DNA from: Embleya scabrispora DSM 41855
GTDB taxonomy: Bacteria > Actinomycetota > Actinomycetes > Streptomycetales > Streptomycetaceae
Direction: 5' to 3'
Assembly (NCBI RefSeq): GCF_000372745.1
Contig: NZ_KB889726.1
Coordinates: forward strand, 1 to 33,619
Length of the DNA stretch: 33,619 nucleotides
Each line of letters opens with the position of its first letter. The first letter of the stretch is position 1. The position numbers and the translations under genes are program-made. This document shows, one piece after another, positions 3,840 to 31,450 of this stretch. The notes under the pieces are model-generated. The model ran no database searches. It saw nothing but the letters and a program-made list of their open reading frames with translations, and was not told the DNA's origin.

Positions 3840-4037
3840 CCGCCGGCTTTGCCTGAAGTTTCGACCAGCGCTGCTCTGCGGTCGGGGGCGCTGTCGTACC
3901 GCCGTTCCCATCGTCCGCCGGCCCGGACAGCGCCGCGGCGGGACCCCCGACAGCGCCGCGGTGCCGACTGCCGCGAGGGCGCCTCCGAGAACTGTTCTTC
4001 TGGCCGGAGGCAGTGAGCCTGCGATGTGGTGGGTCAT
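3840..4037 (-). pseudogene. 5' stub of a Tat-exported protein
   Basis: An ATG at 4037 with a near-perfect ribosome binding site (GAAGGAG, seven to eight bases away) starts a twin-arginine signal peptide: ARRTVLGGALAAVGTAALSG, residues 13-32. After the signal region the sequence turns into arginine/proline-rich nonsense and runs straight into the 18-bp hairpin. The open frame nominally continues to 3447, overlapping the AGE start, but that part looks non-coding. The most likely reading is a secreted enzyme whose body was deleted, leaving signal peptide and downstream hairpin. Its place in the sugar cluster suggests a lost secreted hydrolase, but nothing identifies it. The 459 bp upstream (4038-4496) hold no gene, only the operator at 4421. 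Confidence 0.5.
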
Positions 4038-4496: not shown

Positions 4497-5519
4497 TCAG
4501 GCCGGTACCTCGCCGGAGCCGCGGGTCTTCAGCGTGACCGGGACGATCACGGTCTGCGCCGGGCGGGCCGGATCGGCGATGCGCGCGCGCAGCAGTTCCA
4601 CGGCCGTCCGGCCGATGGTGGAGGTCTCCTGGGCGACCACGGTGAGCGCGGGCCGGATGAGGTCGGCGAGCGGCACCTCGTCGAAGGCGACGATGCCCAG
4701 CCGGGAGGCCGCCTGCGGGCCGAGGTGCCGCAGCACCGCAAGCGTGGTGTCCATGGTGCCGGTGACCAGCGCGGTCGCCGGCTCCGCGCCGTGCAGCACG
4801 GCCTCCAGTGCGGCGGCGACGCGTTCGGGGGTGATCTCGCCGGGGTGCACCAGACCCTCGGCAGGCCGGCCGTGGGCGCCCAGCGCGGCCCGGAAGGCCG
4901 CCGCGCGCTCCCGTCCGGAGTAGACACGCTCGCTGTCGCCGATGTAGGCGATCCGGCGGTGCCCGTGCCGGTACAGGTGGTGGAAGGCCATGCCGATGCC
5001 CGCGGCGTTGTCCGACATGACGCAGTCCGCCGAGATCCCGGCCATCGGCCGGTCCATGGAGACCAAGGGCATGCCCGCCTCGATCTCCGGCTCCAGGTAG
5101 GCGTGGTTCTCGCCGATCGGCTCGACGATGATGCCGTCGAGGCGCTGCCGGCACATGGAGACGAGAATCTCGCGTTCCCTGGCCTCGTCGAAGTCGGTGG
5201 AGGCCGCCAGGAGGGTCTGCCCCGACGCGCGGGCCGTGTGCTCGATGGCGGCCAGGGCCGGGTTGACCTCGGCGATTCGTCGAACGGCCGCGCCGATCGT
5301 GCCGGTGACGCCCGTGCGCAGCTGCCGGGCCCGCTCGTCCGGGCGGTAGTTGAGCGCCACGATCGCGGCCTCGACCCTGGCCGCGTACTCAGGACCCACC
5401 GTCGGGTCGTTGTTGACCACCCGGGAGACCGTGCGCAGAGCCACGCCGGCCTCGCGGGCGACGTCCACCATGGTCGGCCGCTTGGATCGGCCCCCGTTCC
5501 CACCCGCTGGTCGGCTCAT
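4497..5519 (-). CDS. LacI-family transcriptional repressor of the sugar locus
   Basis: This 340-aa regulator begins with a LacI helix-turn-helix (residues 16-60: MVDVAREAGVALRTVSRVVN), followed by a hinge and a periplasmic-binding-protein-like sugar sensor domain (IGAAVRRIAEVNPALAAIE; IGENHAYLEPEIEAGMPLVSMDRP; LGIVAFDEVPLADLIRPALT). The ATG at 5519 has GAGGAG about nine bases upstream. A longer in-frame start at 5573 would overlap the divergent promoter and is rejected. The gene sits between two copies of one operator and divergent from the ABC importer, so it most likely represses both the importer operon and the minus-strand metabolic genes until a sugar inducer binds. AACGTTATC at 5548-5556, half of the operator palindrome, lies just upstream of its own start and may give autoregulation. 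Confidence 0.93.
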   Translation of the reverse strand: MSRPAGGNGGRSKRPTMVDVAREAGVALRTVSRVVNNDPTVGPEYAARVEAAIVALNYRPDERARQLRTGVTGTIGAAVRRIAEVNPALAAIEHTARASGQTLLAASTDFDEAREREILVSMCRQRLDGIIVEPIGENHAYLEPEIEAGMPLVSMDRPMAGISADCVMSDNAAGIGMAFHHLYRHGHRRIAYIGDSERVYSGRERAAAFRAALGAHGRPAEGLVHPGEITPERVAAALEAVLHGAEPATALVTGTMDTTLAVLRHLGPQAASRLGIVAFDEVPLADLIRPALTVVAQETSTIGRTAVELLRARIADPARPAQTVIVPVTLKTRGSGEVPA

Positions 5520-5566
5520 CCGGTGTGACTCCTCGCTGTAGCGGTCGAACGTTATCCGATCGACTC

Positions 5567-5597
5567 TTGACACATTCCCGTAACGCAGGATTATCCT
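5567..5597 (+). promoter_or_regulatory. sigma-70-like promoter of the ABC transporter operon
   Basis: A consensus -35 box TTGACA (5567-5572) is followed after 18-19 bp by TTATCC/TATCCT (5591-5597) as a -10 box. The operator begins directly after it, a position from which a bound LacI protein would block RNA polymerase. Confidence 0.6.
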
Positions 5598-5612
5598 CGC
5601 GATAACGTTATC
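5597..5612. promoter_or_regulatory. LacI-type operator at the transporter promoter
   Basis: GATAACGTTATC (5601-5612) is a perfect 12-bp palindrome with central CG. With flanking bases it shares TCGCGATAACGTTAT with the site at 4421-4435 in opposite orientation. It immediately follows the predicted -10 box. The repeat of 15 identical bases at the two control points of the locus is strong evidence for one shared regulator. Confidence 0.8.
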
Positions 5613-5689
5613 TCGAAGATGTGCAGGCGTCGATCCCCTCCGATCCGCTCCACTCTCGCGGGTTACATCACCCCCACCAGGAGACTTCC

Positions 5690-6964
5690 ATGCGGCCCAC
5701 CCCTCTGATCGCGGCCTGCGTTGCCGCGGGCCTCACCCTGCTCACCGGATGTTCCGCCGCAACCAACGACGGCGGGAAGGGCGGCAGCGACCTGACCTAC
5801 CTGACGTTCGAGACCCCGAACCTGAACGCGCAGTTCTGGGACACCTCGATCACCGAGGCCCAGAAGCAGGCCCCCGGCGTGTCGGTGAAGAAGATCGTGA
5901 CCCCGGGCACGGACCGGGACGCGTACGCAAAGCAACTGCTGGCCTCCGGCCAGTTCCCGGACCTGCTGCAGTCGATCACCCCGTCGACGTTCGCGCAGAA
6001 CGGGCTGCTCAAGCCGTACGACAAGAACTGGGTGAACGCCAACTTCCTGATGCCGATGGGCAACGCCTACAAGGGCGAGGTCTACATCCCGCCGACGAAC
6101 TCCCAGGTCATCCCCGAGGTCTTCTACAACAAGAAGCTGTTCGCGCAGGCGGGCATCACCGCGCCGCCCAGGACGTGGTCGGAGTTCATGGCGGTGTGCG
6201 CCAAGCTCAAGGCGGCCGGCATCACCCCGATCGAGCTGGGCGGCGGCGACCCGTTCTCGGCGTCCATGCCGCTGGTCGGCATCCTGTCCGCGGACGTCCT
6301 GGGCAAGAACCCGAACTGGCTGCAGGACCGCTACGCGGGCAAGACCAGATTCACCGATGCCAACGTCGAGGCCGCTGCGACCAAGTACCGGACGATGGTC
6401 AAGGAAGGCTACTTCCAGGACGGCGCGCTGGGCGTGAAGTACGCGGACTCGATCACGAACTTCACCTCCGGCAAGACCGCGATGTACATGATGGGCAACT
6501 GGTTCCTCGGCTCGGTGCCCAAGGATCACGCCGACGACTTCGGCGCCTTCCTCACCCCGACCGACGACGGGTCCCTGGTCGTGCCGTTCGCGGTGGGTGG
6601 GTCCATGGCGATCAGCGCCAAGACAGCCGACCCGGCAAAGGCGACCGCGTTCGCCCAGGCCTGGTCGACGAACCCGGCGAACCTCAAGACCCTGATCGAG
6701 GGCGACGGCGCGTTCCCCATGCTCAAGAACAAGACCCTGGCCGACTACAACGTCAACGTCACCCAGGTCTACAAGGACTCCTACACCTACGTCACCGACC
6801 AGAACACGAAGGTCTCGGCCTTCGGCTGGGCGACCAACGACGACGCCATGCCCTCCGGACTGAACGACGCCTTCTACTCGGCCAGCCAGGCGCTGTTCAC
6901 CTCCGACGACGTCCACGGACAGCTCGCCAAGCTCGACGCCGCCTGGGACAAGGCCACCAAGTAG
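5690..6964 (+). CDS. sugar ABC transporter substrate-binding lipoprotein
   Basis: This 424-aa extracellular solute-binding protein of the family-1 (maltose/oligosaccharide) type starts at an ATG preceded by CAGGAG. Its signal peptide ends in a lipobox, LTGC, with the lipidated Cys at residue 21. The mature part has the usual two-lobe pattern: LKPYDKNWVNANFL; VIPEVFYNKKLFAQAGI near residues 140-160; TAMYMMGNWFLGSV near 265; a C-terminal helix rich in Ala and Lys. It is membrane-anchored outside the cell and hands its ligand to the two downstream permeases. It is first in the operon directly behind the LacI-controlled promoter. The ligand is probably an oligosaccharide; the sequence does not show which. 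Confidence 0.93.
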   Translation: MRPTPLIAACVAAGLTLLTGCSAATNDGGKGGSDLTYLTFETPNLNAQFWDTSITEAQKQAPGVSVKKIVTPGTDRDAYAKQLLASGQFPDLLQSITPSTFAQNGLLKPYDKNWVNANFLMPMGNAYKGEVYIPPTNSQVIPEVFYNKKLFAQAGITAPPRTWSEFMAVCAKLKAAGITPIELGGGDPFSASMPLVGILSADVLGKNPNWLQDRYAGKTRFTDANVEAAATKYRTMVKEGYFQDGALGVKYADSITNFTSGKTAMYMMGNWFLGSVPKDHADDFGAFLTPTDDGSLVVPFAVGGSMAISAKTADPAKATAFAQAWSTNPANLKTLIEGDGAFPMLKNKTLADYNVNVTQVYKDSYTYVTDQNTKVSAFGWATNDDAMPSGLNDAFYSASQALFTSDDVHGQLAKLDAAWDKATK

Positions 6965-7038: not shown

Positions 7039-7929
7039 ATGACCACCCGAGCCCACCCACGCCGCGGCGACCCGGCCCTCGGTGCGATCGCCGTTCTCAC
7101 GCTCGGCCTGTACGCCCTGTTCATCGTCGTTCCGGTGATCATGAGCGCCTGGAAGAGCCTGACGGACGAGAACCCGCTCAAGCCGCAGACCCACTTCGTG
7201 GGATTCGACAACTACACCGAGATGACGCACGACAGCGCACTGTCGGACAGTCTCACCTTCACCCTCCTGCTGACCGCAGCGGTGACGATCGCCGCCAACG
7301 CCGCAGGCATCGGGTTCGCGATCCTCCTCAACAAGACATCGCTGAGCTACCGGATGATGCGGACCGTCGCCTTCCTGCCGCAAGTGCTGTCCGGCGTCAT
7401 CGTCGCCTTCGTGTGGCGCTACATCCTGGCCCAGGACGGCATCCTCAACGACATCCTGACCACCACGGGGATCACCGACAAGCCGATCACCTGGCTCGGC
7501 ACGCCACACCTGGCGATGTTCTCGGTCGGCCTGGTCGCCGCCTGGGTCCTGACCGGCTTCACCACCGTCGTGCACCTGGCGGCGCTGCAGTCGATCCCGG
7601 TCGAGCTCTACCAGGCCGCGAAGGTGGACGGCGCCGGCCGCCGGCAACAGTTCCGGCACATCACCTTCCCGATGGTGGCCCCGGGCACGACCATCAGCGT
7701 CACGATCTCGATGATCACGATGCTGAAGCTGTACGACATCATCGCGGTCCTCACCTCGGGCGGCCCCGCGGACTCCACCCAGTCCACCGCCCTCTACATC
7801 ATCAAGTGCGCCTTCACCGACAATCGCTTCGGCTACGCCTCGGCGGTGGCCATGCTGCTCCTGGCCGTCTCCGCGGTCATCGCGCTGTCCGTGACCGGCC
7901 TGCTGCGCCGCCGGGAGGTGGACCTGTGA
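7039..7929 (+). CDS. ABC sugar transporter permease, MalF/UgpA type
   Basis: This 296-aa membrane protein has about six hydrophobic segments, beginning at residues 14-38 (GAIAVLTLGLYALFIVVPVI). The binding-protein-dependent permease signature (EAA loop) is at residues 191-211: YQAAKVDGAGRRQQFRHITF. This loop docks the ATPase. The ATG has AAGGGA upstream. The stop overlaps the next permease start by four bases (GTGA), implying translational coupling. It forms the inner-membrane channel with the next gene. No ATP-binding subunit is encoded nearby; in streptomycetes one ATPase, MsiK, commonly energises many such importers. Confidence 0.93.
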   Translation: MTTRAHPRRGDPALGAIAVLTLGLYALFIVVPVIMSAWKSLTDENPLKPQTHFVGFDNYTEMTHDSALSDSLTFTLLLTAAVTIAANAAGIGFAILLNKTSLSYRMMRTVAFLPQVLSGVIVAFVWRYILAQDGILNDILTTTGITDKPITWLGTPHLAMFSVGLVAAWVLTGFTTVVHLAALQSIPVELYQAAKVDGAGRRQQFRHITFPMVAPGTTISVTISMITMLKLYDIIAVLTSGGPADSTQSTALYIIKCAFTDNRFGYASAVAMLLLAVSAVIALSVTGLLRRREVDL

Positions 7930-8846
7930 CCGTCTCGACCTCGCACCGGCCGGCCGCATCGCGGAGCACCGCGCCGAGCCCATCCACCGGCCGGGCCGCC
8001 TCCATACCGAGAGCGAAGCGCCGCAAGTGGGCGACGAAGGGCCACCTCATCGCGGCCACACTGGTGACGCTGGCCTTCGTCAGCCCCGTCTACCTCACCG
8101 TCGTCAACGCCTTCAAACCGCAGGACCAGATCGTCTCGGACCCCGCCGCCCTGCCGGTACCGCCGACGACCCGGAACCTGACGGACGCGCTGTCCCGCCC
8201 CGACCGCATCATCCAGATCGGCCTCACCAACTCTCTGGTCACGGTCGTCGCGTCGGTGATCCTGATCATCCCGATCGGCGCGGCCTTCAGCTTCTGGCTG
8301 TCCCGCCGCTCGGCACCCCTCCAACGAATCGTCCTGGCCGTGTTCGGCGCCGGCCTGATGATCCCGCCCGCAGTCCTCCTCCTGCCCACCATCCGGATCC
8401 TGACCTTCCTGCACCTGGACCACACCTACACCGGGCTGGTCCTGTCCAACGTCGGCGGCGGATACCTGGCGTTCGCGGTCTTCGTCTACTCCGGATTCCT
8501 GCGGTCCGTCCCGGGCGAGATCATCGAGGCCGCGACCGTGGACGGCGCCGGAACGCTGCGGATCTGGTGGACGATCGTCATGCCGCTGCTGCGCCCGGCC
8601 ACCGCGACCGTCGCGATCTTCCTGTCGCTGTGGATCTGGAACGACTTCATGAATCCACAGTTCATCCTCGGCCCGCTGCACGGACAGACCATCACCACCG
8701 GTGTGTACCAGTCGCTCGGCCAGTTCTCCACCAACTACGCACAACTGTTCGGCGTGATGCTCCTGGCCGCGGTCATCCCCGTCGCCGGATACCTCTTCCT
8801 GCAGAAGCAGTTCATCGCCGGACTCACCTCGGGAGCCAGCAAGTGA
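7926..8846 (+). CDS. ABC sugar transporter permease, MalG/UgpE type
   Basis: The second permease (306 aa) starts at GTG 7926, inside the stop of the first permease, with GGGAGG seven to eight bases upstream. A roughly 40-residue Ser/Pro/Arg-rich cytosolic tail precedes the first membrane segment (HLIAATLVTLAFVSPVYLTV). The EAA loop is at about residues 199-220 (EAATVDGAGTLRIWWTIVMP). The C-terminus ends with the usual short LQKQFIAGLTSGASK tail. The frame is open far upstream within the first permease, but that is a shadow. It pairs with the 7039 gene and its stop again overlaps the next start by GTGA. Confidence 0.92.
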   Translation: MTVSTSHRPAASRSTAPSPSTGRAASIPRAKRRKWATKGHLIAATLVTLAFVSPVYLTVVNAFKPQDQIVSDPAALPVPPTTRNLTDALSRPDRIIQIGLTNSLVTVVASVILIIPIGAAFSFWLSRRSAPLQRIVLAVFGAGLMIPPAVLLLPTIRILTFLHLDHTYTGLVLSNVGGGYLAFAVFVYSGFLRSVPGEIIEAATVDGAGTLRIWWTIVMPLLRPATATVAIFLSLWIWNDFMNPQFILGPLHGQTITTGVYQSLGQFSTNYAQLFGVMLLAAVIPVAGYLFLQKQFIAGLTSGASK

Positions 8847-11500
8847 CCACCATCGCCGCCGCCGATCCCCAGCACGCCGTCTCCGGGGCCGGCGTCCCCG
8901 ACCTGGACCAGCTTGCCAGGCACTGGGTCGGCCTCGACGAGATCGCACACCTGCCGTCGCTGCGCAACCAGCAGGGCCAAGGCCACGTCGACTACGACCT
9001 GTCCTCCCTGTCCTGGCTGGTCGCCGCCCCCTTCACCTTCGGATATCACACGGGCGAACTCCGCGTGGACGGGCGGACCTTGGCTGCCCAGCGGTTCCTG
9101 TGGAAGCCCTGGGGCGTGACGCGCGAGCACCGGGGAGACGGCCTGCTGCTGAGCACCGACACTCGGATGGCGCTGTCGCGGGACCTGCTGCTGTGGCGCC
9201 TCACGGTCACCAACGAGAGTCCCGAGGCCAGGACCGTCGAGCTGTCCCAGGACCTGTTCGCGATGGTCGCGCATACCGAGGTCGGCTTCGGTTGGCTGTA
9301 CGACGTGCCGTGGAACGACGGCAACCACCACGACTTCATGGCGCTCGAGCGTATTCGCGCCACCACCGGCGGACGTGGCGAGTCCCACCTGCTCTCCCCG
9401 GCGTCGCGCCGGCTCCGGCTCGGTAGGCCCCGTGTCCCGGGGATCCAGCGCGACGAGGACCACGGCCCGATGCTTTTGGACGACGCGCTCCCGGCGCATG
9501 TCAGCCACGACAGGGAACCGGAACCGCGTGTCGGCGTGGCGGCGACGGTTCGCGCTCTGACGGTCGCAAGCGCCGACGGCATTGTGGCCGTGCGCGCCGA
9601 CGAGGCGATCCGGCTCACCCCGGACGACGAGGCGAACTTCGATGCCTTCGCCCTGACCCCCGGGATGACGATCGCCTTCGAGCTTCGCCTCGACACCGAG
9701 AGCCAGTCCGGAACCGTCCTGACCCACGGCAACCACCCGGACTCGCTGCGGATCGGCGTCGAGAACGGTTGTCCGTGGCTCGGCATCACCGGGGAACGCG
9801 TGTTCACGGACGTCACCGCCCCGGCCGGGGCGTGGCACCGCGTCAGCGCGCACATCGAAGCCGACCACGTCGTGCTCCGCCTCGACGACCAGGAGATCAC
9901 GCGGACCGGCCACTGGACCCAGTCGCGCCGCTGGACGTCCGCACCGCAAGACGGCATGGTCGCCATCGCGGACACCCGGTCGGCGGCACGCGCTGCCTAC
10001 GCCTTCACCAACATGCCGTCCGCCCTTCGGACCGAAGGCCCCGGCGGCCGCGCCACCTGGACCCGCCGGATCGAGCCCGGCCAGAGCGTGACCATCGGCA
10101 TCACCTGCGCGTACGGAACCGATGCGCACGACGTCGCCGCCGAGGCCCGGGCCGCGGCCGAATCCTTCGAAGCGACGATGCGCGCGGGCGAGGACGGCTG
10201 GCAGCGGCACTGGGCCAACATGTTCACCCCGGGAAACCCGGACTTCTCCGGGCACCTTCCGGTCCTCACCACCGACGACGCCGGGCTCGCGGACACGTAT
10301 TACCTCGGCGCGCTGCAGGTGCTGTACATGCGCAACATCCGGATCCGGCCCGGCGAACCTGTGTTCCTCACCGGCGGCCCCCGACTGGGGCCGACGACGA
10401 CGTACTTCTGGGACCACTGCGAGTGGAGCCGGATGTACGCCCTCCTGGAGCCCGCCGGACTGCGCTCATGGCTGCTGCGCGTCCTCTCCGGCCCCTATCG
10501 GGACTCCTTCGGGATCGAAGCCCGCAGCGGCGGTCCGCTGGGCAACGCATACAGCGCCAACGACTACGCCCTGTTCCGGCTCATCGAGCACTACGTCTGC
10601 ACCAGCGGTGACGCCGCCTTCCTCGACGAATCGACCGGTGGAGCAACGGTCTTCGAACACCTGGAGCGACTCGGCTTCGGCTGGCGCGACAAACGCAGGG
10701 CGGCCACCGGAGGCGTGCTCGCCGACTTCGGCGACGACGCGTGGAGCCTGCTGGAGTGCGTGCCCACGTACACCGCAGTCGTCGCGGGCTTCAACAGCGC
10801 CTACGTCGGGATGACCCGTTCGATGGCTGGCCTGTACCGACAGCGGGGCCGCCAGGAGGACGCGGCACGAGCCGACGCGGAAGCCGAGGTCTTGGCCGCG
10901 GCGGTGCTGGAACTGTACGCGGGCGCGGGCCGCTGGCAGATACGCCGCCCCGACGGGACGGACACGATCGGGCACTGCCTCGACTTCGGCCTGACCTCCG
11001 CAGCCCTGCACCGCGATCTGAACGACGAAATGCGGTGCGAAATGGCGGACTTCGTTACCGAACGCCTGCTGGTGGGCGGCTGGATGCGGGCCCTGAGCCC
11101 CGACGACCCGGCCGCCGCCGCCTCCGACCGTCCCGACCACGGCGCGGCCGGCGCGTTCTGCGCCTGGCCCGGCGTCACCGCGTACGGCTTGGCCCGCCTG
11201 GGCTACCGCGACCGGGCGATCGCGCTGCTGCGCGACCTGACGTCCGCCGCCTCGGGCGGGGTGTGGGGCCAGGCCATGGAAATCGTCACCGGACCTGATG
11301 GGCGGCCGCGCGCTCGGGTCGCCGAGCGCGGTGTCTCGAACCGCGACAGCATCGCGGGCGCATCCGGTGCGGAAGCCGTGCTGTCCGCAGTGTTCGGCGT
11401 CACGCCGTCGTTCGCTGCGGGCGGCCCGAACGAACTGCCGGACACGTTGACCGCCGACGGGGTCGGAACCCTCACCGGCCTCCGGAGCCCCGCTGTCTGA
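8843..11500 (+). CDS. large cytosolic (alpha/alpha)6-barrel glycosidase, family not recognised, with LamG-like insert
   Basis: This 885-aa protein is translationally coupled to the permease (GTG 8843 inside the previous stop) and has no signal peptide, so it should act on imported sugar. The N-terminal part (about 30-250) is beta-rich, like the N-domain of clan-GH-G/L enzymes. Residues about 270-355 look like a concanavalin/LamG sandwich (MTIAFELRLDT; WHRVSAHIEADHVVLRLDD). From about residue 440 to 860 there is a six-hairpin barrel, with the distinctive LTGGPRLGPTTTYFWDHCEW and LADFGDDAWSLLECVPTYTA, and a late WPGVTAYGLARLGYRDRAIA. The FWD motif followed by a helix-rich region recalls GH63, GH37 and GH95, but I cannot assign a family or the catalytic pair. 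Glycosidase or phosphorylase are both possible; the role in the operon is inferred from position. Confidence 0.75.
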   Translation: MTTIAAADPQHAVSGAGVPDLDQLARHWVGLDEIAHLPSLRNQQGQGHVDYDLSSLSWLVAAPFTFGYHTGELRVDGRTLAAQRFLWKPWGVTREHRGDGLLLSTDTRMALSRDLLLWRLTVTNESPEARTVELSQDLFAMVAHTEVGFGWLYDVPWNDGNHHDFMALERIRATTGGRGESHLLSPASRRLRLGRPRVPGIQRDEDHGPMLLDDALPAHVSHDREPEPRVGVAATVRALTVASADGIVAVRADEAIRLTPDDEANFDAFALTPGMTIAFELRLDTESQSGTVLTHGNHPDSLRIGVENGCPWLGITGERVFTDVTAPAGAWHRVSAHIEADHVVLRLDDQEITRTGHWTQSRRWTSAPQDGMVAIADTRSAARAAYAFTNMPSALRTEGPGGRATWTRRIEPGQSVTIGITCAYGTDAHDVAAEARAAAESFEATMRAGEDGWQRHWANMFTPGNPDFSGHLPVLTTDDAGLADTYYLGALQVLYMRNIRIRPGEPVFLTGGPRLGPTTTYFWDHCEWSRMYALLEPAGLRSWLLRVLSGPYRDSFGIEARSGGPLGNAYSANDYALFRLIEHYVCTSGDAAFLDESTGGATVFEHLERLGFGWRDKRRAATGGVLADFGDDAWSLLECVPTYTAVVAGFNSAYVGMTRSMAGLYRQRGRQEDAARADAEAEVLAAAVLELYAGAGRWQIRRPDGTDTIGHCLDFGLTSAALHRDLNDEMRCEMADFVTERLLVGGWMRALSPDDPAAAASDRPDHGAAGAFCAWPGVTAYGLARLGYRDRAIALLRDLTSAASGGVWGQAMEIVTGPDGRPRARVAERGVSNRDSIAGASGAEAVLSAVFGVTPSFAAGGPNELPDTLTADGVGTLTGLRSPAV

Positions 11501-11582: not shown

Positions 11583-14468
11583 ATGATCAGCAGAAGAACT
11601 GCAATCTCGACCTTCGTCGCCGCGGTCGGAACCGCGCTCATGCCGCTGTCGGCAAGCGCGGCGGACGGGCAACCGTTCGCACCCGCCGAGGCGGGAGCGG
11701 CGAATCAAGCCACCGAGGCCGACTGGAACAAGGTCTCCCGGGTCTTGGACGGCTACAAGGGTGTCTACACCCGGGACACACGCATCGGGTCGCCCTGGAA
11801 CACGGCGTTCAACCCCGACGGTCCGATCATGGGCAACGGAACGACCTTCGCGTTCATGGCCGGCGATCACCGGACGCAGAACATCTACGTGTCGAGAAGT
11901 GACATGTGGCGTGACCGCTCCAGCAGGAACGGGCAGCAGTACACCGCCTTCGGCGGTCTCACCATCCGCGCCGACGACGGCATCGACCTGGCGCAGGGCA
12001 AGCCCGTGCAGGTCAGCGGTTTCACCAGCAGCAACGAGGACGGCCCCAAGCTCGTGGACGGCCGCGACGACACCAAGTGGTGCTCGACGGTTGCCACGAA
12101 CGGGGGATCTGCGGTCTATTGGGCCGTTGTCGACCTCGGCCAGGCGCAGAACATCTCGCGCTGGGTGGTCAAGCACGCCTCTGCGGGCGGAGAGACGGCG
12201 CAGGCCAACACCAAGGACTTCCGCCTGCAGTATTCGACCAAGTCGGACCCGAAGGGCGGGGTCGATGCGGACTGGACCGATGCCGATACCGTGACGGGAA
12301 ACAGTGCGGCCGTGACGGATCGCAACCTGGCGACCCCGATCACGACGCGCTACGTACGCCTGCAGGTGACGACGGCCGAACAGGGCGCGGGGAACACGCT
12401 GCGCATCTACGGTCTTGACCTCTATGCGCAGCCGAAACTGGCCGCCCAATCGGATTTCCGCTATGAGCAGGACATGAGGAACGCGGAGGTGCTCGCGCAG
12501 TCCGAGGGCGGATTCACGACCTTCACCTGGCTCTCCGCCAGGGAGAACCTCATTATCACCCTCATAAAGAACACCACGGCGGGCCGCCTTCCGCTGGAGG
12601 TCTCCAACTGGACTGTCAACAGCAATGCCGCGGCGGAGGTACGCGGCAACATGATGGTGGCGACCAAGTCCGGCACCAGCGCGTCCTCCAACAGGGCGAG
12701 CGGTGACGGCACCTGGCCGGGGTGGACGGTGAACGTGGCGATGGCCTCAAAGGTCATCGGCAATGTCAAGACCACGGTCACTGCCGGAGCCGGGAGCACG
12801 AACCGGACCAACTTCACGCTGGACGCGGGCCAATCCGTCACCGTTGTCTCGGCGATCGAGGGCGGCAAGCAGAGTGCGACGGCCAACAGCATGGGGCAAG
12901 CGATCGACACGGCCCTGGCGAAGGTGGCGTCACGATCCCACGCCCACGCCCTGGCATCGGCGCAAAAGGCCCACCGAGCCTACTGGAAGCAGTACTGGCT
13001 GAAGTCGTTCATCCACATCCACGACTCGAAGGTGGAGCGGATGTATTACGGCCTGCTCTACGAGCTGGGCTGCGCCACCTCGGCCTCCAGTGAGAACAAC
13101 GCCGGCCTTCCCCCGGGCCTGTTCCCCTGGACGGCGAACGACAACCCCGCTTGGCAGGGCGACTACACGACGAACACCGACATGCAGCGCCAAGTGGACT
13201 CGCTCATGACGGCGAACCGGCTCGACGGCGTCCAGAACTACGTGAACCTCCTTGAACAGTACTGGCCTGAGGCGCAGCGGCGCTCGGCGTCCGCGCAGAA
13301 CCTCAACTGGGTGATTCAGGGCACCGGGCGCCCGACATCCTTCACCGACGGGATCAACAGCGGAGCGTTGGTCCCCACCCATATCGGGCCGTGGGGTGCG
13401 TCCACCGAGCAGTACAACGACTCGAGGGAATACTGGAACTCCCCGGCGGATGCCAGCTCCGTGCTCATGCCGCTGGTCAAGATGTTCCAGTACAACCAGG
13501 ACGACGGCTTCCTCAAGGAGCACCTCTACCCGATGCTGCGTTCGGTCGCGGTGTTCTGGGAAAACTACGTAACCCTCGAAAACGGCAAGTACGTCGTCTA
13601 CGGTGCAACCCACGAGGGGGTCGCGGGGCGCAATCCGATCTTCGACGTCGACGCCGCCGGCTACATCCTGCGCAACGCCGTCGACGCGGCCAAGCAGCTC
13701 CGCGTGGACTCGGATCGGGTCTCCGCGTGGCAGCACATCGTCGACAACATGAGCGCGCAGCCGACGTTCCTGTACAACGGCAAGGTCACCATCTGCGACG
13801 TCGAGGGGCGCACCCAGGCCAACCCGGGGAGCACCTTCGACAGCAACCCGGTGACGATCCAGAGCGTGTACTACTACGACTCTGTCGGGATGAGTGCACC
13901 GCCAACGGTCAAGGAGAAGTACTTCAACTACCTTGCCGTCAAGAACGGGATGGGCACCGCGCGTCGCCTCACCAGCGCGACACGCCTCGGCTACGACATC
14001 CACGAGATCATGGACCACCTCAGGATCGGATCGATCGATCCGGCGCCAGGCGACTGGGCAGGTCTGCGCGGGAACAACACGGTCGGCGATCTCGGGGCGG
14101 TCAACCTGCTCGGGGTGGTACAGGAGTCGCTGCTGCAGAGCAACGAGGGATTCGTGAACGTCTTCGCCAACTGGTACAAGGATCAGGCGGCGAGCTTCAC
14201 CCGGCTCCGCGCGAACGGTGCGTTCCTCATCGACGCCTCCCAAGACGCGTCGGGCACCAAGACGTTCGTCGGGGTGAGGAGCGAGAAGGGTAAGGAGCTG
14301 TCGATCCTGAACCCCTGGCAGGGGCGGAGCGTCGGGATCTTCCGGAATGGCCATCGGATCGCCGCGAAGAGCACCCGGAACCCGCTTGGCGAGATTCTGA
14401 CCATACCGACGAAGGCGGGCTCGTACTACGAGCTTCGCGTCGTTCGACGGCAGCAGGCGGCGGGATGA
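11583..14468 (+). CDS. secreted GH95-like glycoside hydrolase with internal F5/8C (CBM32-like) domain
   Basis: This 961-aa protein starts with a twin-arginine-like signal (SRRTAISTFVAAVGTALM, cleavage near ASA-AD at residue 26). Residues 60-130 match the start of a GH95-type N-terminal sandwich (GPIMGNGTTFAF; VSRSDMWRDR). An F5/8 type C domain interrupts it at about 135-282 (LAQGKPVQVSG; LVDGRDDTKWCS; TRYVRLQV). The sandwich resumes at YEQDMRNAEVL. The catalytic (alpha/alpha)6 barrel runs from about 450 to 840 (GDYTTNTDMQRQVDSLM; YGATHEGVAGRNPIFDVDAA) and ends with a GH95-like C-terminal sheet domain. Glu678 in THEGVAG is the best candidate general acid by analogy. GH95 contains alpha-L-fucosidases and alpha-L-galactosidases; true substrate unknown. 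It lies 82 bp after the cytosolic glycosidase, with AAAGGGA before the ATG. Confidence 0.8.
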   Translation: MISRRTAISTFVAAVGTALMPLSASAADGQPFAPAEAGAANQATEADWNKVSRVLDGYKGVYTRDTRIGSPWNTAFNPDGPIMGNGTTFAFMAGDHRTQNIYVSRSDMWRDRSSRNGQQYTAFGGLTIRADDGIDLAQGKPVQVSGFTSSNEDGPKLVDGRDDTKWCSTVATNGGSAVYWAVVDLGQAQNISRWVVKHASAGGETAQANTKDFRLQYSTKSDPKGGVDADWTDADTVTGNSAAVTDRNLATPITTRYVRLQVTTAEQGAGNTLRIYGLDLYAQPKLAAQSDFRYEQDMRNAEVLAQSEGGFTTFTWLSARENLIITLIKNTTAGRLPLEVSNWTVNSNAAAEVRGNMMVATKSGTSASSNRASGDGTWPGWTVNVAMASKVIGNVKTTVTAGAGSTNRTNFTLDAGQSVTVVSAIEGGKQSATANSMGQAIDTALAKVASRSHAHALASAQKAHRAYWKQYWLKSFIHIHDSKVERMYYGLLYELGCATSASSENNAGLPPGLFPWTANDNPAWQGDYTTNTDMQRQVDSLMTANRLDGVQNYVNLLEQYWPEAQRRSASAQNLNWVIQGTGRPTSFTDGINSGALVPTHIGPWGASTEQYNDSREYWNSPADASSVLMPLVKMFQYNQDDGFLKEHLYPMLRSVAVFWENYVTLENGKYVVYGATHEGVAGRNPIFDVDAAGYILRNAVDAAKQLRVDSDRVSAWQHIVDNMSAQPTFLYNGKVTICDVEGRTQANPGSTFDSNPVTIQSVYYYDSVGMSAPPTVKEKYFNYLAVKNGMGTARRLTSATRLGYDIHEIMDHLRIGSIDPAPGDWAGLRGNNTVGDLGAVNLLGVVQESLLQSNEGFVNVFANWYKDQAASFTRLRANGAFLIDASQDASGTKTFVGVRSEKGKELSILNPWQGRSVGIFRNGHRIAAKSTRNPLGEILTIPTKAGSYYELRVVRRQQAAG

Positions 14469-14573
14469 AGCCGAGCGCCCACAGCTGACGCGGGCTCACC
14501 ATCAAGGCAGCCGATGACCTCTCCGGGCGGGGCTGATCGAGTTCTCGCTCGGCGGCACTGCACACCAGCTGCC

Positions 14574-14690
14574 GGCCGAGCGAACTGAACATCCCCCTCC
14601 ACCTTATGCCGCTGCCGCCGGTCGAGCAGGAGCCTGCGAGCGGCGCCGCCGGGACGCGGAACTGACCGGCCAGATCTGGCAGGTCCACTA
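14574..14690 (+). pseudogene. IS3-type orfB remnant, part left of the IS630 insertion
   Basis: In one frame this reads YAAAAGRAGACERRRRDAEL followed by TGQIWQVHY, the shape of the segment before the conserved YGSPR motif in IS3-family orfB. The reading frame is cut by the IS630 left end at 14691 and resumes, in phase once the inserted element and one TA copy are removed, at 15856. Too short for a family subgroup. Confidence 0.5.
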
Positions 14691-15853
14691 CTGAAGTTTT
14701 CGTCGTGATGTCGTGGACGGTTGAAGATCCCTGCGCTATGCCGTGGATATGCGGTATGCGCAGGGTGGTGGGTTGACTCCCAAGGAGCGTGCGGCGCGAG
14801 AGCGGTTGCGGTTGGACGCCGCCGAGCGGTTCGAGCGTGGGGAGTCGAACGCGGTGATCGCGTCGGAGTTACGGGTGGCGCGTCGGTCGGTGGAACGGTG
14901 GCGTCGTGCCTGGCGCGAGGCGGGTGTCGAGGGCCTGAGATCGAGCGGTCCCGCGTCTGTGCCCAGGTTGGATCCGTCGCAAATGGACGCATTGGAAGGG
15001 GAGTTGGACAGGGGCCCGAGAGCCCACGGTTGGCAGGATCAACGTTGGACCCTGATGCGGGTGAAGGCGGTGATCCGGCGTCGTTTCGGGGTGACCTACT
15101 CGATCCATGGGGTCTGGGGGTTGCTGCGTCGGGCCGGCTGGTCGTGTCAACAGCCGGCTCGGCGGGCGGTGGAGCGGGACGAGGACGCGGTGCGGGGTTG
15201 GGTGCGGGAGACGTGGCCGTCGGTGGAAGCACCGCGGCGGCGCTCGACGCCTGGATCGTCTTCGAGGACGAGGCCGGGATGTCGATGACGCCGCCGCGAG
15301 CGCGCACGTGGGGACGACGCGGGGTCACCCCGGTGGTGCGGGTGTGCGGAGGCTCCTGCGGCCGGGTCTCGATCGCCGCACTGACCTGCTACAAGCCGAG
15401 TGAACGCTCCCGTCTGATCTACCGACACCGCGTGCACACACGCCGCAAGGGGGAACGCAGGAGCTTCGCGTGGACCGACTACCGCGACCTCGCCGTGCGT
15501 GCGCACCTGCAACTCGGCGGCCCCATCGTCCTGGTCCGGGACAATCTCAACACCCACCGCGCGGCCGACCTGCGCAAGTACGCCGCCGAGCACGACTGGC
15601 TGACGATCAGACAGTTGCCGAGTTACGCGCCGGACCTGAACCCGGTCGAGGGCATCCGGTCGCTGGTCCGTCGCGGCTTCACCGGCAACGTCGGGTTCAC
15701 CGACGCCGACCACCTGGTCCGCACGATCAGACACGGCCTCCGCCACATCCAACGACGCCCCCGCCTCATCGACGCCTGCCTCGCCGAAACCGGCCTCACC
15801 ATCCGACCCAGGGAATGAAAACCAACCCACCGACATCACGACGAAAACCTCAG
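14691..15853 (+). mobile_element. IS630-family insertion sequence with TA target duplication
   Basis: The left end (TA then CTGAAGTTTTCGTCGTGATG, from 14689) and the right end at 15831-15855 are imperfect inverted repeats of about 25 bp with one mismatch, each bounded by TA, the known target of IS630/mariner-like elements. The interior is filled by one transposase in two frames. It is inserted into the IS3-type orfB remnant that flanks it on both sides. Confidence 0.88.
14743..15818 (+). CDS. IS630-family transposase in two overlapping frames
   Basis: The first frame (from 14743 to a stop at 15288) encodes a paired helix-turn-helix DNA-binding part: ERFERGESNAVIASELRV, RRSVERWRRAWREAG, then the winged segment GVTYSIHGVWGLLRRAGWS. 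The catalytic part is in the -1 frame ending at 15818, with the DDE residues in VFEDEAG, VLVRDNLNTH and YAPDLNPVEG. The crossover lies at about 15220-15250, around CACCGCGGCGG. It is either programmed -1 frameshifting, known in this family, or a disabling mutation; no strong slippery heptamer is obvious. The frame-0 line is open along most of the element but its upstream half is a shadow. Confidence 0.82.
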
Positions 15854-15855
15854 TA

Positions 15856-15975
15856 AGAGTCCGGCGGGATCTACGGCTCTCCGCGTGTCCATGCGGCCCT
15901 GCGGCGCGAGGGCGGAGCGCGCCGAGGGCTGCGACGACATCTCGAACCGGGCCGAGGGCGGCGAGAACGTCACGA
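15856..15975 (+). pseudogene. IS3-type orfB remnant, part right of the IS630 insertion
   Basis: The frame reads ESGGIYGSPRVHAALRREGG, the canonical YGSPR motif at the start of the IS3 orfB catalytic region, then loses coherence within about 15 codons. It is the continuation of the fragment at 14574-14690. Confidence 0.6.
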
Positions 15976-16053
15976 TCGGCCCGGACTGAGGTTTCCCCCG
16001 TGAGCATGGACACCTTGAAACTTGGATCGTGAGGTCCAGGAAGGGAAGTCCAA

Positions 16054-16590
16054 GTGGGACGCCCGTCGAAGTACACGGATGAGTTCAGGCGCGACGCGGT
16101 CGCGTTGTATCGCGCTTCGGTCGGGAGTCGCTCGATCGCGTCGGTGGCGTCCGAGCTCGGAGTCAACCACGAGACGCTGCGTGGTTGGGTGCGTCAGGCG
16201 GAAGCGGACGCCGGGAGCGCACCGACCGGTTGAGTACGGCCGAGCGGGAGGAACTCGTCCGACTCCGCAAGCAGGTCCGCGAGCTGGAGCTCGAGAAGGA
16301 GATCCTGCGCAAGGCGGCCCAGTATTTCGCGAAGGAGATGCCGCGGTGAGCCGCTTCCGTTTCATCTCCGAACACCGACGCTTCGGCGTCAAGCGGCTGT
16401 GTCGGGTTCTCGGCGTCGCTCGGGGGTCGTACTACGCCTGGTCGGCCGCCGATCCCGCCCGGCAGGCTCGCGCGGCGGCGGACGCGAGGCTGATCGAGCG
16501 GATCCGGGCGGTGCACACCGAGTCGAAGGAGGCCTACGGCGTTCCGCGGATCACCGCCGAGCTGCGGGCCGACGGACACTGCCGCGGCGC
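16054..16590 (+). pseudogene. truncated IS3-family element (orfA frameshifted, orfB N-terminus only)
   Basis: orfA begins at GTG 16054 behind AGGAAGGGAAG and shows the IS3 helix-turn-helix (SKYTDEFRRDAVALYRAS; SIASVASELGVNHETLRGWV). Near 16205-16225 a one-base shift moves the leucine-zipper part to another frame (ELVRLRKQVRELELEKEIL, RKAAQYFAKEM). orfB starts at GTG 16346 overlapping the orfA stop (RFRFISEHRRFGVKRLCRVL; GSYYAWSAADPARQ; TESKEAYGVPRITAELR) and breaks off after about 80 residues, before any DDE residue. The left end of the element may be near 15992 (GAGGTTTCCCCCGTGAGCAT); the right end is lost. Confidence 0.8.
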
Positions 16591-16599
16591 CGGGATCGT

Positions 16600-17165
16600 C
16601 GGCGGTGGCCAGCACCGCGCCCCGGTGTTCGGCGTTCTCTGCGGCCGGGTGTCGCCCGGGAGACGTCTCGGCTCGAACGTCGCGGGTGGTGAAGGCGCCG
16701 CCGGTCAGCGCGTACCAGGCGAAGAGGAACACTCCTTTGCAGTCGTCGAGGGCGATGCCGGCCGCTTCGGAGACCGGCTTCCCCAGCCCGGAGAAGTATT
16801 GGTCAACCTGCCGCGACGTGAGCCGCCAGGGCACCACGCCGTAGAACCAGCAGAGCTCCACCACTGGCTGGACCAGCGCGTCCAGGGTCTCGCCGACAGC
16901 CCCGCAACGTCCCTCGCCCAGCAGTACTCAGCCAACGTGCCCTGGTAGAGGGCCCGTTCGTCCCCTCCGTCGACGACCGGAACGCTGCGGACACCCACAC
17001 CGGAACGGGCCACCGGAAACTGTCCCTGAACTGCTCCCACCGGAGGAGGACAGCGTCCACGTCGTCGACCCGGCGATCGGCGCGGCCCAGAACGCGCTCT
17101 CCGCGCCACGCCTGCACTTCGACGAGCAGTGCCGGAGTTGGTCGGCCGCGAGACCGTGACGACAT
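16600..17165 (-). pseudogene. decayed gene, possibly a tyrosine recombinase/integrase N-terminus
   Basis: On the minus strand a protein can be followed from ATG 17165 through three frames: ALLVEVQAWRGERVLGRADR, then DGGDERALYQGTLAEYCWAR, then ELCWFYGVVPWRLTSRQVDQ followed by YFSGLGK and ALDDCKGVFLFAWYALTGG. At least two frameshifts are needed. The middle portion recalls the SAM-like N-terminal domain of phage-type integrases, but no catalytic Arg/His/Tyr box is left and the assignment is weak. It lies between the truncated IS3 copy and the next IS, so it may be the wreck of a recombinase that once mobilised the region. Confidence 0.4.
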
Positions 17166-17197
17166 TTCCGTGCTCGTGGCGAGGGCCCGTTCGTGAG

Positions 17198-18398
17198 CGT
17201 GTGGGGCTCGTAAAGTCATCGCTGCAGGTGGGAGCCTGCGCGCAAGGTTCCTCGGTGGTGGCTGGGATGCTGCGGGGGTGATCATCTCGATGCTGTACCG
17301 GGCCACCCGGGCGTTGCTGTCTGCGCGTGCGGTGCTGCTGCGCCGGGACACCGCCAAGGACGCCGAATTGCTGGTGCTGCGGCACGAGAACGCGGTGCTG
17401 CGACGGCAACTCAACGGTCCAATCCGCTACGAACCCCCGGACCGGTTCTGGCCGGCCGCGTTGTCGTCGCTGATACCGCGCCGCCGCTGGAGCCGTGTCT
17501 TCTCGGTCACCCCGGGGACGCTGCCGGCCTGGCACCGCAGACTGATCGCTGGCAAGTGGGACTACTCCGACCGACGCCGACGCACCGGGCGCCCTCCCAC
17601 GGCGGCCGTGCTCAAGAAGCCGGTTCTGCGTCCGGCGCAGGAGAACCCGCGGTGGGGGCACCGGCGGATCCAGTGAACCGGCCCGCCCGGGGCATCCGAT
17701 CGCGCCGTCCACGGTCTGGGAGATCCTGCACGCGGCCGGCATCGACTCGGCCCCGCGCCGCACCGGCCCGAGCCGGCGCGAATTCCTCACCACCCAGGCC
17801 GAGGGGATCATCGCGGCGGACTTCTTCCACATCGACACGACCGGCAGGCGGCTGTACGCCCTGGCGTTCCTCGAGAACGGCACCCGGAAGCTCCACATCA
17901 CCGGCATCACCGGCATCACCGCCCACCGCACCGCGCAGTGGGCGAACCAGCAGGCCCGCAACCTCGCCGACGACCTGGGCACCCGCGTCGAGTCGCTCCG
18001 CTTCGTGCTCCGCGACCGCGACAGTAAGTACACCGGCTCCTTCGACTCCGTCTTCGAAGCCGAGGAGATGCAGGTGCTGCTCAGCGCGCCCCGGGCGCCG
18101 CGCATGAATGCCCACTTCGAGCGCGTGATCGGCACGATCCGGCGCGAGGTCCTCGACCACATCCTGATGACGAACGAGGCTCACGCCCGGCAGGTCCTCG
18201 CCGAGTACCAGGAGCACTACAACTGCCACCGGCCACATCGATCACGAGACCAACGACCACTCGAGGTCCAGGAACAGCCAGCGGGCTTGCACGATCGCGT
18301 GCCGCACAAGCTCCTGCGCACCCGCGTCCTCGGCGGAGTCATCAACGAGTACCGATATGCGGCTTGAGCTGCAGCGATGAATTTTCGAGCCCCACACG
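17198..18398 (+). mobile_element. 1.2-kb insertion sequence with 30-bp inverted repeats
   Basis: The ends at 17198-17227 and 18369-18398 are inverted repeats of 30 bp with about three mismatches (left end CGTGTGGGGCTCG, inner part TCATCGCTGCAG). They enclose one transposase gene and almost nothing else, which defines the element completely. No convincing target duplication is seen in the flanking bases. Confidence 0.85.
17278..18367 (+). pseudogene. rve-type DDE transposase inactivated by one frameshift
   Basis: The N-terminal part (17278-17676) reads ELLVLRHENAVLRRQLNG, RRRWSRVFSVTPGTLPAWH and ENPRWGHRRIQ, then stops. The rest continues in the +2 phase: HPIAPSTVWEILHAAGID; the catalytic AADFFHIDTTG; VLRDRDSKYTGSFD; NAHFERVIGTIRRE; HYNCHRPHRS, to a stop at 18367. 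All three DDE residues are intact. Restoring one missing base at about 17675 (between RRIQ and EPARPGHP) would reopen the whole frame, so inactivation is recent. Related to the integrase-core transposases of IS3/IS481 type; I do not assign a subgroup. Confidence 0.85.
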
Positions 18399-18580
18399 AC
18401 GTGCGGTCGCCTGGCCGCCGCCCGCCTGAGTCCGAGACCGACCCAGCTCGCGGCTGCCGCCCGGGTCGGGTTCACCGTGCCCGAAGCGTTGCTGACGTCC
18501 GACCCGGACGCGGTCCGCGCGTTCCTCGCCGACCACCACGACCGGGTGGTGGTCAAGGCATTGACCCAGTGGCACACCAC
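18399..18580 (+). pseudogene. fragment resembling a peptide-maturing ATP-grasp enzyme
   Basis: Directly after the IS right end a frame reads RLSPRPTQLAAAARVGFTVP, EALLTSDPDAVRAFLADHHD and RVVVKALTQWHTT. The pattern (Asn/Lys-QL-x-A-x-x-GF-x-VP, then T-x-DP, then VVVKAL) is that of the central part of ATP-grasp ligases of the MvdD/TgmB type that crosslink graspetide precursors. It has neither a start nor the ATP-binding C-terminal half and runs into antisense of the AraC gene. No precursor peptide is seen nearby. The remaining bases to 18736 hold nothing recognisable. Confidence 0.5.
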
Positions 18581-18736
18581 CCTACGTAATCGCCGCGTGT
18601 ACCGACGTGCGCGGCGGTGGGGCGGCGTTGCGCACGCCGTTGACCACTCTCGATACGCGTGGCACGCCGACGCTGTCGCTGCTGTGCCCTGTCGGCCGTC
18701 GGCGGCGGTGTGTGACGTGTTGGACCGCTGGTTCAG

Positions 18737-19624
18737 CTATGCCTGTCCCTTGCGGCGGTATTCCTGGGGTGTGCAGCCGTCGGCCTGACGGAAGGCTCGG
18801 GCGAAGTGCTGGCCGGACCCGAATCCGATCTCGATGCCGATCGCGGTGATCGTCAAGTCGCTGGCAGCCAGCAACTGCCGGGCTCGTTCGATGCGGCGCT
18901 CGTTGAGGTATCGATGTGGCGACATGCCCGTCTCCCGAGCGAACAGTCCCGCGAGGTAGGTGGGTGCGAGGCCGACGCGTTCCGCGAGGTCTGCCAGGGG
19001 CCATCGGCGTGAGAACTCGCCGTCCAGAAGGGTGCGGATCCGGGCGACAGCGGGGTGGATCGACAGCTCGGATGTGCCCGGGACGGGCATGAGCAGCCGG
19101 CCGGCCTCCAGGATGAGCCTGTCGGCGGCCAGCGCGACCCCCTCGTCTTGGTGCGAGCGTTTCACTGTCAGCTCTCGAACCAACTGCGCGAAGGGTTCTG
19201 CGAGGGATTGCGCGCCCGGGCGGTGCACGACAGCCGGCAGGTTGCGCCACTGTTCGGTGAGGGCCGGGTGGCGTCCGAACACCGCGGCGGTGTCGATGGC
19301 GGCAAAGTAGAAGTGATGGTTGCCGGGGTGTTCCTCGGCCATGTGATGGACGGTCCCGGGCGCCACCATGAACATGTGCCCAGGGCCCAGGACGTAGCGG
19401 CGTCCCGCTGCGGTCCACCTGCTCAGGCCGTGGACTTGCAGGTAGACCTCCCATTCCGGATGGGTGTGCTCGTGGATCAGGAAACGGGCCGGCACCCACT
19501 GTTCTCCGGCGTGACGGACACCGCTGGCGGACTGGCTCAGCTGGGCGTGGAAGCCGGCGCGAAGGCCGGTCGGCCGAGATACGGACACCTGAAGATTGTC
19601 CACGCAATGCGATATACCAGGCAA
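18737..19624 (-). CDS. AraC-family transcriptional regulator
   Basis: This regulator of up to 295 aa has an N-terminal cupin-like sensor (FLIHEHTHPEWEVYLQVHG; YVLGPGHMFMVAPGTVHHMA) and a C-terminal pair of AraC helix-turn-helix motifs (WPLADLAERVGLAPTYLAGL; ITAIGIEIGFGSGQHFARAF; final FRQADGCTPQEYRRK). The cupin histidines suggest sensing of a small ligand such as a sugar. The start is uncertain: TTG at 19624 gives the full frame but its GGGAGG is too close; GTG at 19603 or 19588 are alternatives. It is divergent from the PhyH-like gene with only about 35-70 bp between starts, so it probably controls that gene and itself. Confidence 0.9.
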   Translation of the reverse strand: MPGISHCVDNLQVSVSRPTGLRAGFHAQLSQSASGVRHAGEQWVPARFLIHEHTHPEWEVYLQVHGLSRWTAAGRRYVLGPGHMFMVAPGTVHHMAEEHPGNHHFYFAAIDTAAVFGRHPALTEQWRNLPAVVHRPGAQSLAEPFAQLVRELTVKRSHQDEGVALAADRLILEAGRLLMPVPGTSELSIHPAVARIRTLLDGEFSRRWPLADLAERVGLAPTYLAGLFARETGMSPHRYLNERRIERARQLLAASDLTITAIGIEIGFGSGQHFARAFRQADGCTPQEYRRKGQA

Positions 19625-19658
19625 GCCTCCCGTAGTCGGCGCGGTCTAGCGTCTCGCC

Positions 19659-20534: not shown

Positions 20535-20591
20535 CCGGGGGAGCGCGGCCGCGCGAATACATGGGCTGAGCCTTGATCATCGTCGGAAATC

Positions 20592-20621
20592 GGTGGCACC
20601 ACCGTTCAGGGCGGTGCCACC
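20592..20621 (+). terminator. hairpin after the PhyH-like gene
   Basis: GGTGGCACCACC and GGCGGTGCCACC form a 12-bp stem with one mismatch and a 6-base loop, 58 bp after the stop at 20534. No U tract follows. Confidence 0.5.
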
Positions 20622-23244: not shown

Positions 23245-23373
23245 TGCGGTCCTCCCGGCTTGTCCTGTTCCGGTCGGCGCCCGCGCCGGACGCCGGCGGA
23301 TGCGCCCGTTCTGTGGATTCGCGGCCGCCACTGTGGATTCGGAGATTGTTCGGCATATGCCCTCTCGTCAAAT

Positions 23374-23381
23374 TTGCGCAA
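23374..23381. promoter_or_regulatory. TTGCGCAA palindrome, candidate LacI operator (site 1)
   Basis: The perfect palindrome TTGCGCAA with central CG lies in the 241-bp divergent gap, 130 bp upstream of the ThuA start. It shares TTGCGCAAC with the second site 76 bp away. Another palindrome, GGCATATGCC, lies next to it at 23352-23361. Confidence 0.6.
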
Positions 23382-23449
23382 CTTTGCCTCGATAGGTTGA
23401 CGCACTGGCACGCTAACTGATCTATCGCTCCGCCAGCCAGGAAGAATAG

Positions 23450-23457
23450 TTGCGCAA
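23450..23457. promoter_or_regulatory. TTGCGCAA palindrome, candidate LacI operator (site 2)
   Basis: Second copy of TTGCGCAA, 29 bp before the ATG of the LacI gene. Between the two sites a TTGACG (23397-23402) could be the -35 box for the regulator gene, which would place this site over the transcription start. Confidence 0.6.
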
Positions 23458-23485
23458 CATGATGAGGGCTGGGCATGCTTGGGGC

Positions 23486-24520: not shown

Positions 24521-24681
24521 TCGCGTCGGTCGCGGAGCAGGGCTTGGCCGCGTGTGCGGTTGAGATGGAGTTCTCGCAGGTATCGCGCGTAGCGCCGCGC
24601 CGCAGTCTTGGCACCATCGCCGCGATCGTGATCACCGTCGCCGCGTCGTTCGTTCACGCCCGCCCCTCGTCACGTCTCGCC

Positions 24682-25024: not shown

Positions 25025-25028
25025 ACAG

Positions 25029-31446: not shown

Positions 31447-31450
31447 GTGA

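Follow-up and report, generated by a model that had tools for sequence, protein, structure and literature searches.

We analysed a 33,619-nucleotide stretch of Embleya scabrispora DSM 41855 (contig NZ_KB889726.1, positions 1 to 33,619 of the forward strand; the window in the following), in which the gene at 8843-11500 (+) encodes an 885-residue protein with a GH94-like N-terminal domain, a laminin-G (LamG)-like insert and a six-hairpin barrel. The protein is probably an exo-acting, inverting glycosidase of the cytosol and a member of an undescribed family, whose kinship with glycoside hydrolase (GH) families GH63 and GH94 does not go beyond clan level. More tentatively, it may be the founder of a new GH family in whose actinobacterial branch a laminin-G domain was acquired and now contributes to the active site or recognises the substrate intracellularly. 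The system is an ordinary sugar-utilisation operon with an enzyme left unnamed by the family libraries and an unusual domain insertion. The family is unnamed in Pfam and NCBIfam, is spread over at least five phyla, has predicted acid, base and anchor residues and lends itself to direct tests; a laminin-G domain inside a presumably cytosolic glycosidase is unusual.

Family and fold of the enzyme

The 885-codon open frame spans 8843-11500, and its GTG start overlaps the stop codon of the second permease gene (GTGA). The same 4-base overlap with an in-frame start codon was found in 20 of 22 insert-bearing loci, and in L026 and L027 the enzyme starts 8 bases past the permease stop; the coupling to the permease gene claimed by the original prediction, which was made from the letters alone, is thus seen as an overlap across the clade. 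Judged by hydropathy only, no signal-peptide-like stretch was found in the first 60 residues (best 15-residue value 0.57). The source genome (11.39 Mb) contains one match to the enzyme, and matches were present in 6 of the 100 genomes searched, its own among them. In a plasmid collection the closest kin of the window (93.6% identity) lies on a 5.7 Mb linear replicon of Embleya.

At E ≤ 1 the sole Pfam match of the enzyme was Laminin_G_2 with 15.3 bits, below the cut-off of 22.9, and NCBIfam returned no match at this threshold; a phmmer search against the PDB gave nothing below 0.08. That no family was matched refers to the Pfam and NCBIfam libraries, as distinct from CAZy's own models (GH121 and GH142 included). 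Among the papers listed on new GH families, the supersandwich and LamG, covered by titles and the starts of abstracts, none was recognised as describing this enzyme, which leaves absence unproven; a literature search for DUF5703 found no papers. The original prediction had recognised no family, in agreement with the lack of any curated Pfam or NCBIfam family over its cut-off, and had called the protein the window's best candidate for an undescribed family. This holds for the window protein itself, but the wider family is not wholly orphan: at least one insert-less relative, L066, passes the cut-off of MGH1-like_GH (PF22422; 40.0 bits against 27), a family matched by 6 of 41 members at E ≤ 0.1 (best 1.1e-10) and not by the window protein at E ≤ 1. 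The GH94 family PF17167 was matched by 11 of the 41 at E ≤ 0.1 (best 1.1e-5, which in L066 corresponds to 24.7 bits against a cut-off of 27), and not by the window protein at E ≤ 1. GH37 and GH78 were set aside on Pfam evidence only, as the window protein had no match at E ≤ 1 and one of the 41 members matched each (E 0.0044 and 0.011).

An AlphaFold model of the enzyme built from 41 sequences reached a predicted local distance difference test (pLDDT) of 86.7 and a predicted template-modelling (TM) score of 0.87. In a Foldseek search with this model, GH94 phosphorylases came first (E 1.9e-18, TM 0.55/0.60) and filled the top 17 places, and the GH63 protein YgjK followed at rank 22; the fold likeness to GH94 and GH63 is accompanied by only 8-12% identity. 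The 41-sequence profile searched against the PDB also led to GH94, with 1.3e-7 over the whole chain and 4e-5 for the best single stretch, which lies in the N-domain and matches chitobiose phosphorylase. Profiles were further compared by hhalign with heuristically assembled sets of GH94 (8 sequences, partial matches left out), GH65 (10), GH15 (10), GH95 (8 of 10 used; L154 and L158 left out) and GH63-type MGH proteins (30). The barrel matched the GH63-type hydrolases with probability 96 (E 4.3e-9) and GH94 with probability 89 (E 2.1e-6), and five column-shuffled controls stayed at or below 1.4. Under different settings the GH63-type set scored 97.6, and the full-length profile reached 87.5 against GH94. 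GH65, GH15 and GH95 were rejected, with probabilities of only 2.6, 0.7 and 1.3 for the barrel and 8.7, 0.6 and 2.8 for the insert-free full chain.

Among the families that had been listed for comparison, the GH63 type therefore stands, together with GH94, as nearest kin, while GH95, GH65 and GH15 fell away in the profile comparison. The original prediction had argued that a match at clan level only would support a new family. Since the fold search gave a GH94/GH63-like fold at the low identities above and the profile comparison of the barrel a match at clan level only, a new family is supported and, at clan level, likely.

The laminin-G insert and its clade

Alignment to 57 insert-less relatives delimited a clade-specific insert of about 200 residues that these relatives lack. 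It covers residues ~160-362 (9320-9928, +) and consists of a linker followed by the LamG-like domain, which was modelled alone as residues 228-370 (9524-9952, +). A profile of 23 LamG sequences retrieved 31 PDB sequences at E ≤ 1, among them neurexin, agrin, laminin and SHBG. The better guide is the match to SHBG, a chain with one LG domain only (2.8e-6), because the lower value for neurexin (6.7e-10) sums several LG repeats, the best single stretch being 0.12. The model of the domain alone had a pLDDT of 90.6, and Foldseek placed LG domains on top (probability 1.00, E 1.9e-3), with partial coverage of about 90 of 143 residues and nothing below 0.001. Because profile and fold agree, the idea of a chance similarity was rejected. 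The LamG-like insert had been predicted at about residues 270-355, close to the match core found here (~266-357).

Conservation within the insert is uneven. In its first part (residues 155-230) model confidence is low in places, yet 24 of 76 residues are invariant, and the linker motif RxPGIQRD is unchanged in all 23 insert-bearing rows. Of the 132 residues in the LamG part (231-362), 14 are invariant, and eight of these form the loop THGNHPDS (residues 294-301; 9722-9745, +), likewise invariant in 23 of 23 rows. The mean share of the majority residue is 0.57 in the LamG part versus 0.73 in the barrel. With its THGNHPDS loop and conserved linker, the insert may form a lid over the active site or recognise the part of the oligosaccharide that lies past the cleaved bond. 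A role in folding or oligomer assembly, in which the insert would have no contact with the sugar, also deserves serious thought as an explanation of the insert only, even if we would not bet on it: the LamG part is less conserved than the barrel, and many LG domains bind proteins, but a loop and a linker motif unchanged in every row are more than a mere scaffold needs.

A scan of a genome collection yielded 94 relatives, of which the best 80 were kept (L014-L093). Gene calls in the relatives were heuristic, and starts that were first set too far upstream in several loci were trimmed. In the columns of window residues 262-362, 22 loci (L014-L035) carry 101 to 104 residues, L036 is cut short, and all 57 insert-less loci (L037-L093) carry at most 8. 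In a tree calculated without the insert columns, the window protein, the 22 insert-bearing relatives and the truncated L036 form one group with a Shimodaira-Hasegawa-like approximate likelihood ratio test support of 100; this tree was built by a quick method and rooted at its midpoint, and the tool warned of long branches coming together where the two main groups join. As the insert-bearing rows form one group, a single gain is the simplest reading, and judging from the sequences the LamG insert was apparently gained once in an actinobacterial clade. If there was indeed only one gain, the insert with its invariant loop would clearly illustrate how a binding fold is recruited into an enzyme. 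The insert-less relatives are about 700 residues long and belong to Actinomycetota, Rhodothermota, Ignavibacteriota, Bacteroidota, Verrucomicrobiota and Planctomycetota; by hydropathy L037-L039 and L041, all insert-less, have signal-peptide-like starts.

A relative from Streptomyces atratus (L013:11887-14778; L040:9887-12775) carries a LamG domain elsewhere in the chain, at 665-820 (105.6 bits on L013). This is apparently a separate, second gain of the same domain type; the placement of L040 in the tree is unsure.

Predicted catalytic residues and alternative explanations

The FWD motif, which had been ascribed to a helical barrel, was found at residues 522-524 in the helical C-terminal half of the enzyme. 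In the alignment to GH63-type hydrolases, D524 of this motif (10412-10414, +), the predicted anchor of the -1 subsite, pairs with the Asp of WSWD; E638 (10754-10756, +), the predicted general acid, pairs with the Asp of ESGMD; and E813 (11279-11281, +), the predicted general base, pairs with the Glu of EYVDP. The pairings of W523-D524 and of E638 were obtained at all five alignment settings. The E638 column holds Glu in all 80 rows counted (23/23 insert-bearing, 57/57 insert-less), and the D524 column holds Asp in 22 of 23 insert-bearing rows (L034 has Glu) and in 57 of 57 insert-less rows. An acidic residue after a QA/QS motif was found by a loose pattern in 79 of 81 rows and by eye also in L041, not in L050. 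For the hydrolase MhGgH, an excerpt of its report names Asp43 for the substrate, Asp182 as acid and Glu419 as base, and proposes an inverting mechanism (PMC6608630). In our reading these residues occupy the same motif positions as in the comparison protein L094. According to an excerpt of a second report, GH63, GH78 and GH37 share the position of the base (PMC7263609). In the mechanism we propose, E638 would act as proton donor and E813 as activator of water, with D524 keeping the sugar in place in the -1 subsite.

Several observations weigh against this picture. The pairing of E813 was obtained at four of the five settings, not at the strictest. All 23 insert-bearing rows have Glu in its column, but among the 57 insert-less rows only 6 do; in most insert-less rows an acidic residue stands two positions later. 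When the enzyme was aligned to GH94, the catalytic Asp of that family fell near D631/D632 and not on E638. D632 is present in all 23 insert-bearing rows and in none of the other 57; because of this restriction to the clade and its nearness to the GH94 Asp, it could be the acid in the insert-bearing clade. The N-domain alone matched none of the five family sets in hhalign (best probability 4.0, GH94), and because GH94 ranks above GH63 by fold, there is room for a phosphorylase. Owing to the D631/D632 alignment and the variable E813 column, we treat the acid and base assignments as well-founded guesses, not as facts.

Such a phosphorylase would be an inverting, GH94-like enzyme in which phosphate attacks the imported sugar to give a sugar 1-phosphate. 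The top Foldseek places, the full-length profile alignment to GH94 and the position of D632 in the insert-bearing clade speak for it; we nevertheless consider it quite improbable, since the GH94 catalytic motif (A/G)DWND occurs in 0 of 81 rows versus 8 of 8 GH94 controls, E638 and E813 pair with the acid and base of the hydrolases, and the profile lies closer to the hydrolases than to GH94. A pattern for the phosphate-binding residues of GH94 was uninformative, failing on all 8 GH94 controls too. A somewhat unlikely reading is that the enzyme is a very divergent GH63 (MGH1-like) hydrolase and no new family, which is a question of filing and overlaps with the explanation we prefer. The barrel match with aligned functional residues would fit it, as would L066 and the best E among the 41 members in the MGH1-like_GH search, but the window protein lacks a match to that family at E ≤ 1, only a minority of the members match it at all, and the full-chain layout is nearer to GH94. 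The acid motif [E/S]SGxD was also found in 0 of 81 rows, a weak criterion as a like pattern occurs in only 10 of 30 proteins of the MGH set. We favour an inverting, exo-acting glycosidase of an undescribed family.

Operon, substrate leads and relation to known systems

The operon begins with a divergent LacI-family regulator (4497-5573, -; PF00356 and PF13377 over cut-off), whose true start probably lies inside the frame. It continues with an ATP-binding cassette (ABC) sugar-binding lipoprotein (5690-6964, +; SBP_bac_1 94 bits on 5621-6964, with ATG 5690 after GGAG), ABC sugar permease 1 (7039-7929, +; BPD_transp_1 71.1 bits), ABC sugar permease 2 (7926-8846, +; BPD_transp_1 50.3 bits), the enzyme, and an F5/8-type-C domain plus GH95-like enzyme (11583-14468, +; PF22124 46.4 bits, PF00754 59.6 bits). 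By tblastn, both permeases are present in 22 of 22 insert-bearing loci, the binding lipoprotein in 21 (not L030) and LacI in 18 (not L024, L025, L030 and L034); the association with a sugar importer, suggested at the outset from the window alone, is conserved. A GH95-like gene lies in the searched flank of 20 of the 22 loci (not L023 and L031); both its side and its distance vary.

Between LacI and the binding lipoprotein lies a palindrome, CGCGATAACGTTATCTCG (5598-5615), the likely operator, which we infer to be bound by LacI. In the 11.39 Mb genome its 12-mer core has a single occurrence, and the reversed control has none. A palindrome scan, which would overlook weaker sites and for which 4 loci without LacI or lipoprotein were dropped beforehand, found the exact core in 12 of 21 LacI-lipoprotein gaps. 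In 7 further genomes the core occurs once in 5 and twice in 2. The second copies were rejected as signs of a shared regulon, as they lie at a separate LacI-lipoprotein-permease-GH3 operon and give no clue to the substrate.

The GH95-like partner is probably secreted, as a twin-arginine (Tat)-like start was read by eye, and a profile of it led to GH95 structures (BH0842, 4.5e-26). Between loci the partner is 24-31% identical, versus 45-80% for the enzyme. In Embleya NBC_00888 the enzyme is 94% identical, whereas the partner is 29% identical and lies upstream on the other strand. Because of this low identity and different position, the partners seem to be exchanged. The window partner (11583-14468) reads NTD at 531-533, where its relatives read NYN with Y532 and N533 nearly invariant; one of the residues of this site is presumably the catalytic Asn expected in GH95. 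At 3847-4037 (-) of the window, two short pieces in different frames (82% over 33 and 67% over 39 residues) resemble the start of the GH95-like gene that Embleya NBC_00888 carries, as an open reading frame, on the upstream side of the operon. They are apparently a decayed remnant of that gene, the window having a different partner downstream.

Taken as a pathway, the secreted GH95-like enzyme would act outside the cell, trimming a polymer or glycan; the oligosaccharide would be taken up by the lipoprotein and the two permeases and cleaved inside by the enzyme encoded next to them, with LacI at the operator switching the operon on. What the analysis shows is the order of the genes, the start/stop overlap, the likeness in fold, the alignment of residues and the insert with its spread through the clade; activity, exo action, stereochemistry, substrate, regulation and the role of the insert are inferred. 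The importer, the secreted partner and the single operator guide the search for the substrate, and the leads to it disagree. Release of mannose from imported mannose-containing oligosaccharides, which is compatible with the proposed glycosidase, seems unlikely on present evidence. Neighbour clusters were built by single linkage with few members scanned. Of the 80 loci, 16 have a gene of a mannose-6-phosphate-isomerase-like cluster close to the enzyme, the two members compared with the PDB giving 1.4e-8 and 1.9e-8, and in three insert-bearing loci of the 16 (L014, L016 and L017) the gene is directly downstream, adjoined in L014 by a ROK kinase. Five insert-less loci have a GH38 cluster, of which one member was scanned, and the kin of the binding lipoprotein include a mannotriose binder (3.8e-8); both point the same way. 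That binder, however, is far from the best kin in the PDB, which bind chitin oligosaccharides (4.7e-21). Moreover, the isomerase-like gene was not found in the searched flanks of the other 64 loci or beside the window enzyme by the heuristic gene calls, its Pfam support is below cut-off or nil and its NCBIfam support none, and the dehydratase and SDR genes that neighbour the insert-less branch suggest other sugars.

In Streptacidiphilus jiangxiensis (L014:12690-18535) the genes downstream of the enzyme encode the isomerase-like protein, the ROK kinase and a CatAgl alpha-1,3-glucanase-like protein with CBM6, CBM35 and F5/8 domains. Neighbours of the insert-less branch include SDR, enolase-superfamily and GntR genes (one member per cluster scanned), and an enolase-superfamily gene is also near the insert-bearing L024. 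A DUF4185/DUF5005-like cluster occurs in 39 of 57 insert-less loci; among the three members scanned with Pfam, L092 passes DUF4185, L068 passes DUF5005 and L090 neither. DUF4185 holds D-arabinan-degrading enzymes, and D-arabinan was considered as a substrate candidate for the insert-less branch through these neighbours.

Elsewhere in the window, the long frames listed at 14500-25300 have a third-position guanine-plus-cytosine content of only 0.58-0.77, except for a 273-codon frame at 17546-18367 (0.88), and an IS110-type transposase follows at 25305-26645; the region is perhaps decayed. At 29234-33182 an MFS transporter adjoins a TetR regulator, followed by a membrane dipeptidase (M19) gene.

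Compared with known systems, the enzyme shares its (alpha/alpha)6 barrel with the MGH1-like proteins (GH63-type mannosylglycerate/glucosylglycerate hydrolases, PF22422), and the positions of the WD anchor, acid and base align, but its predicted acid is Glu instead of Asp and it has an extra N-terminal domain and the LamG insert. Over the full chain its layout is nearer to GH94 phosphorylases acting on cellobiose or chitobiose, in which N-domain, linker, barrel and C-terminal strands follow in the same order, than to the GH63 type. Its 57 insert-less relatives have the same barrel motifs and no insert at the place where the window enzyme has LamG. The insert itself resembles the LG domains of SHBG, neurexin and laminin in profile and fold over about 90 residues; unlike these, it sits inside an enzyme without a signal-peptide-like start and carries a THGNHPDS loop of its own.

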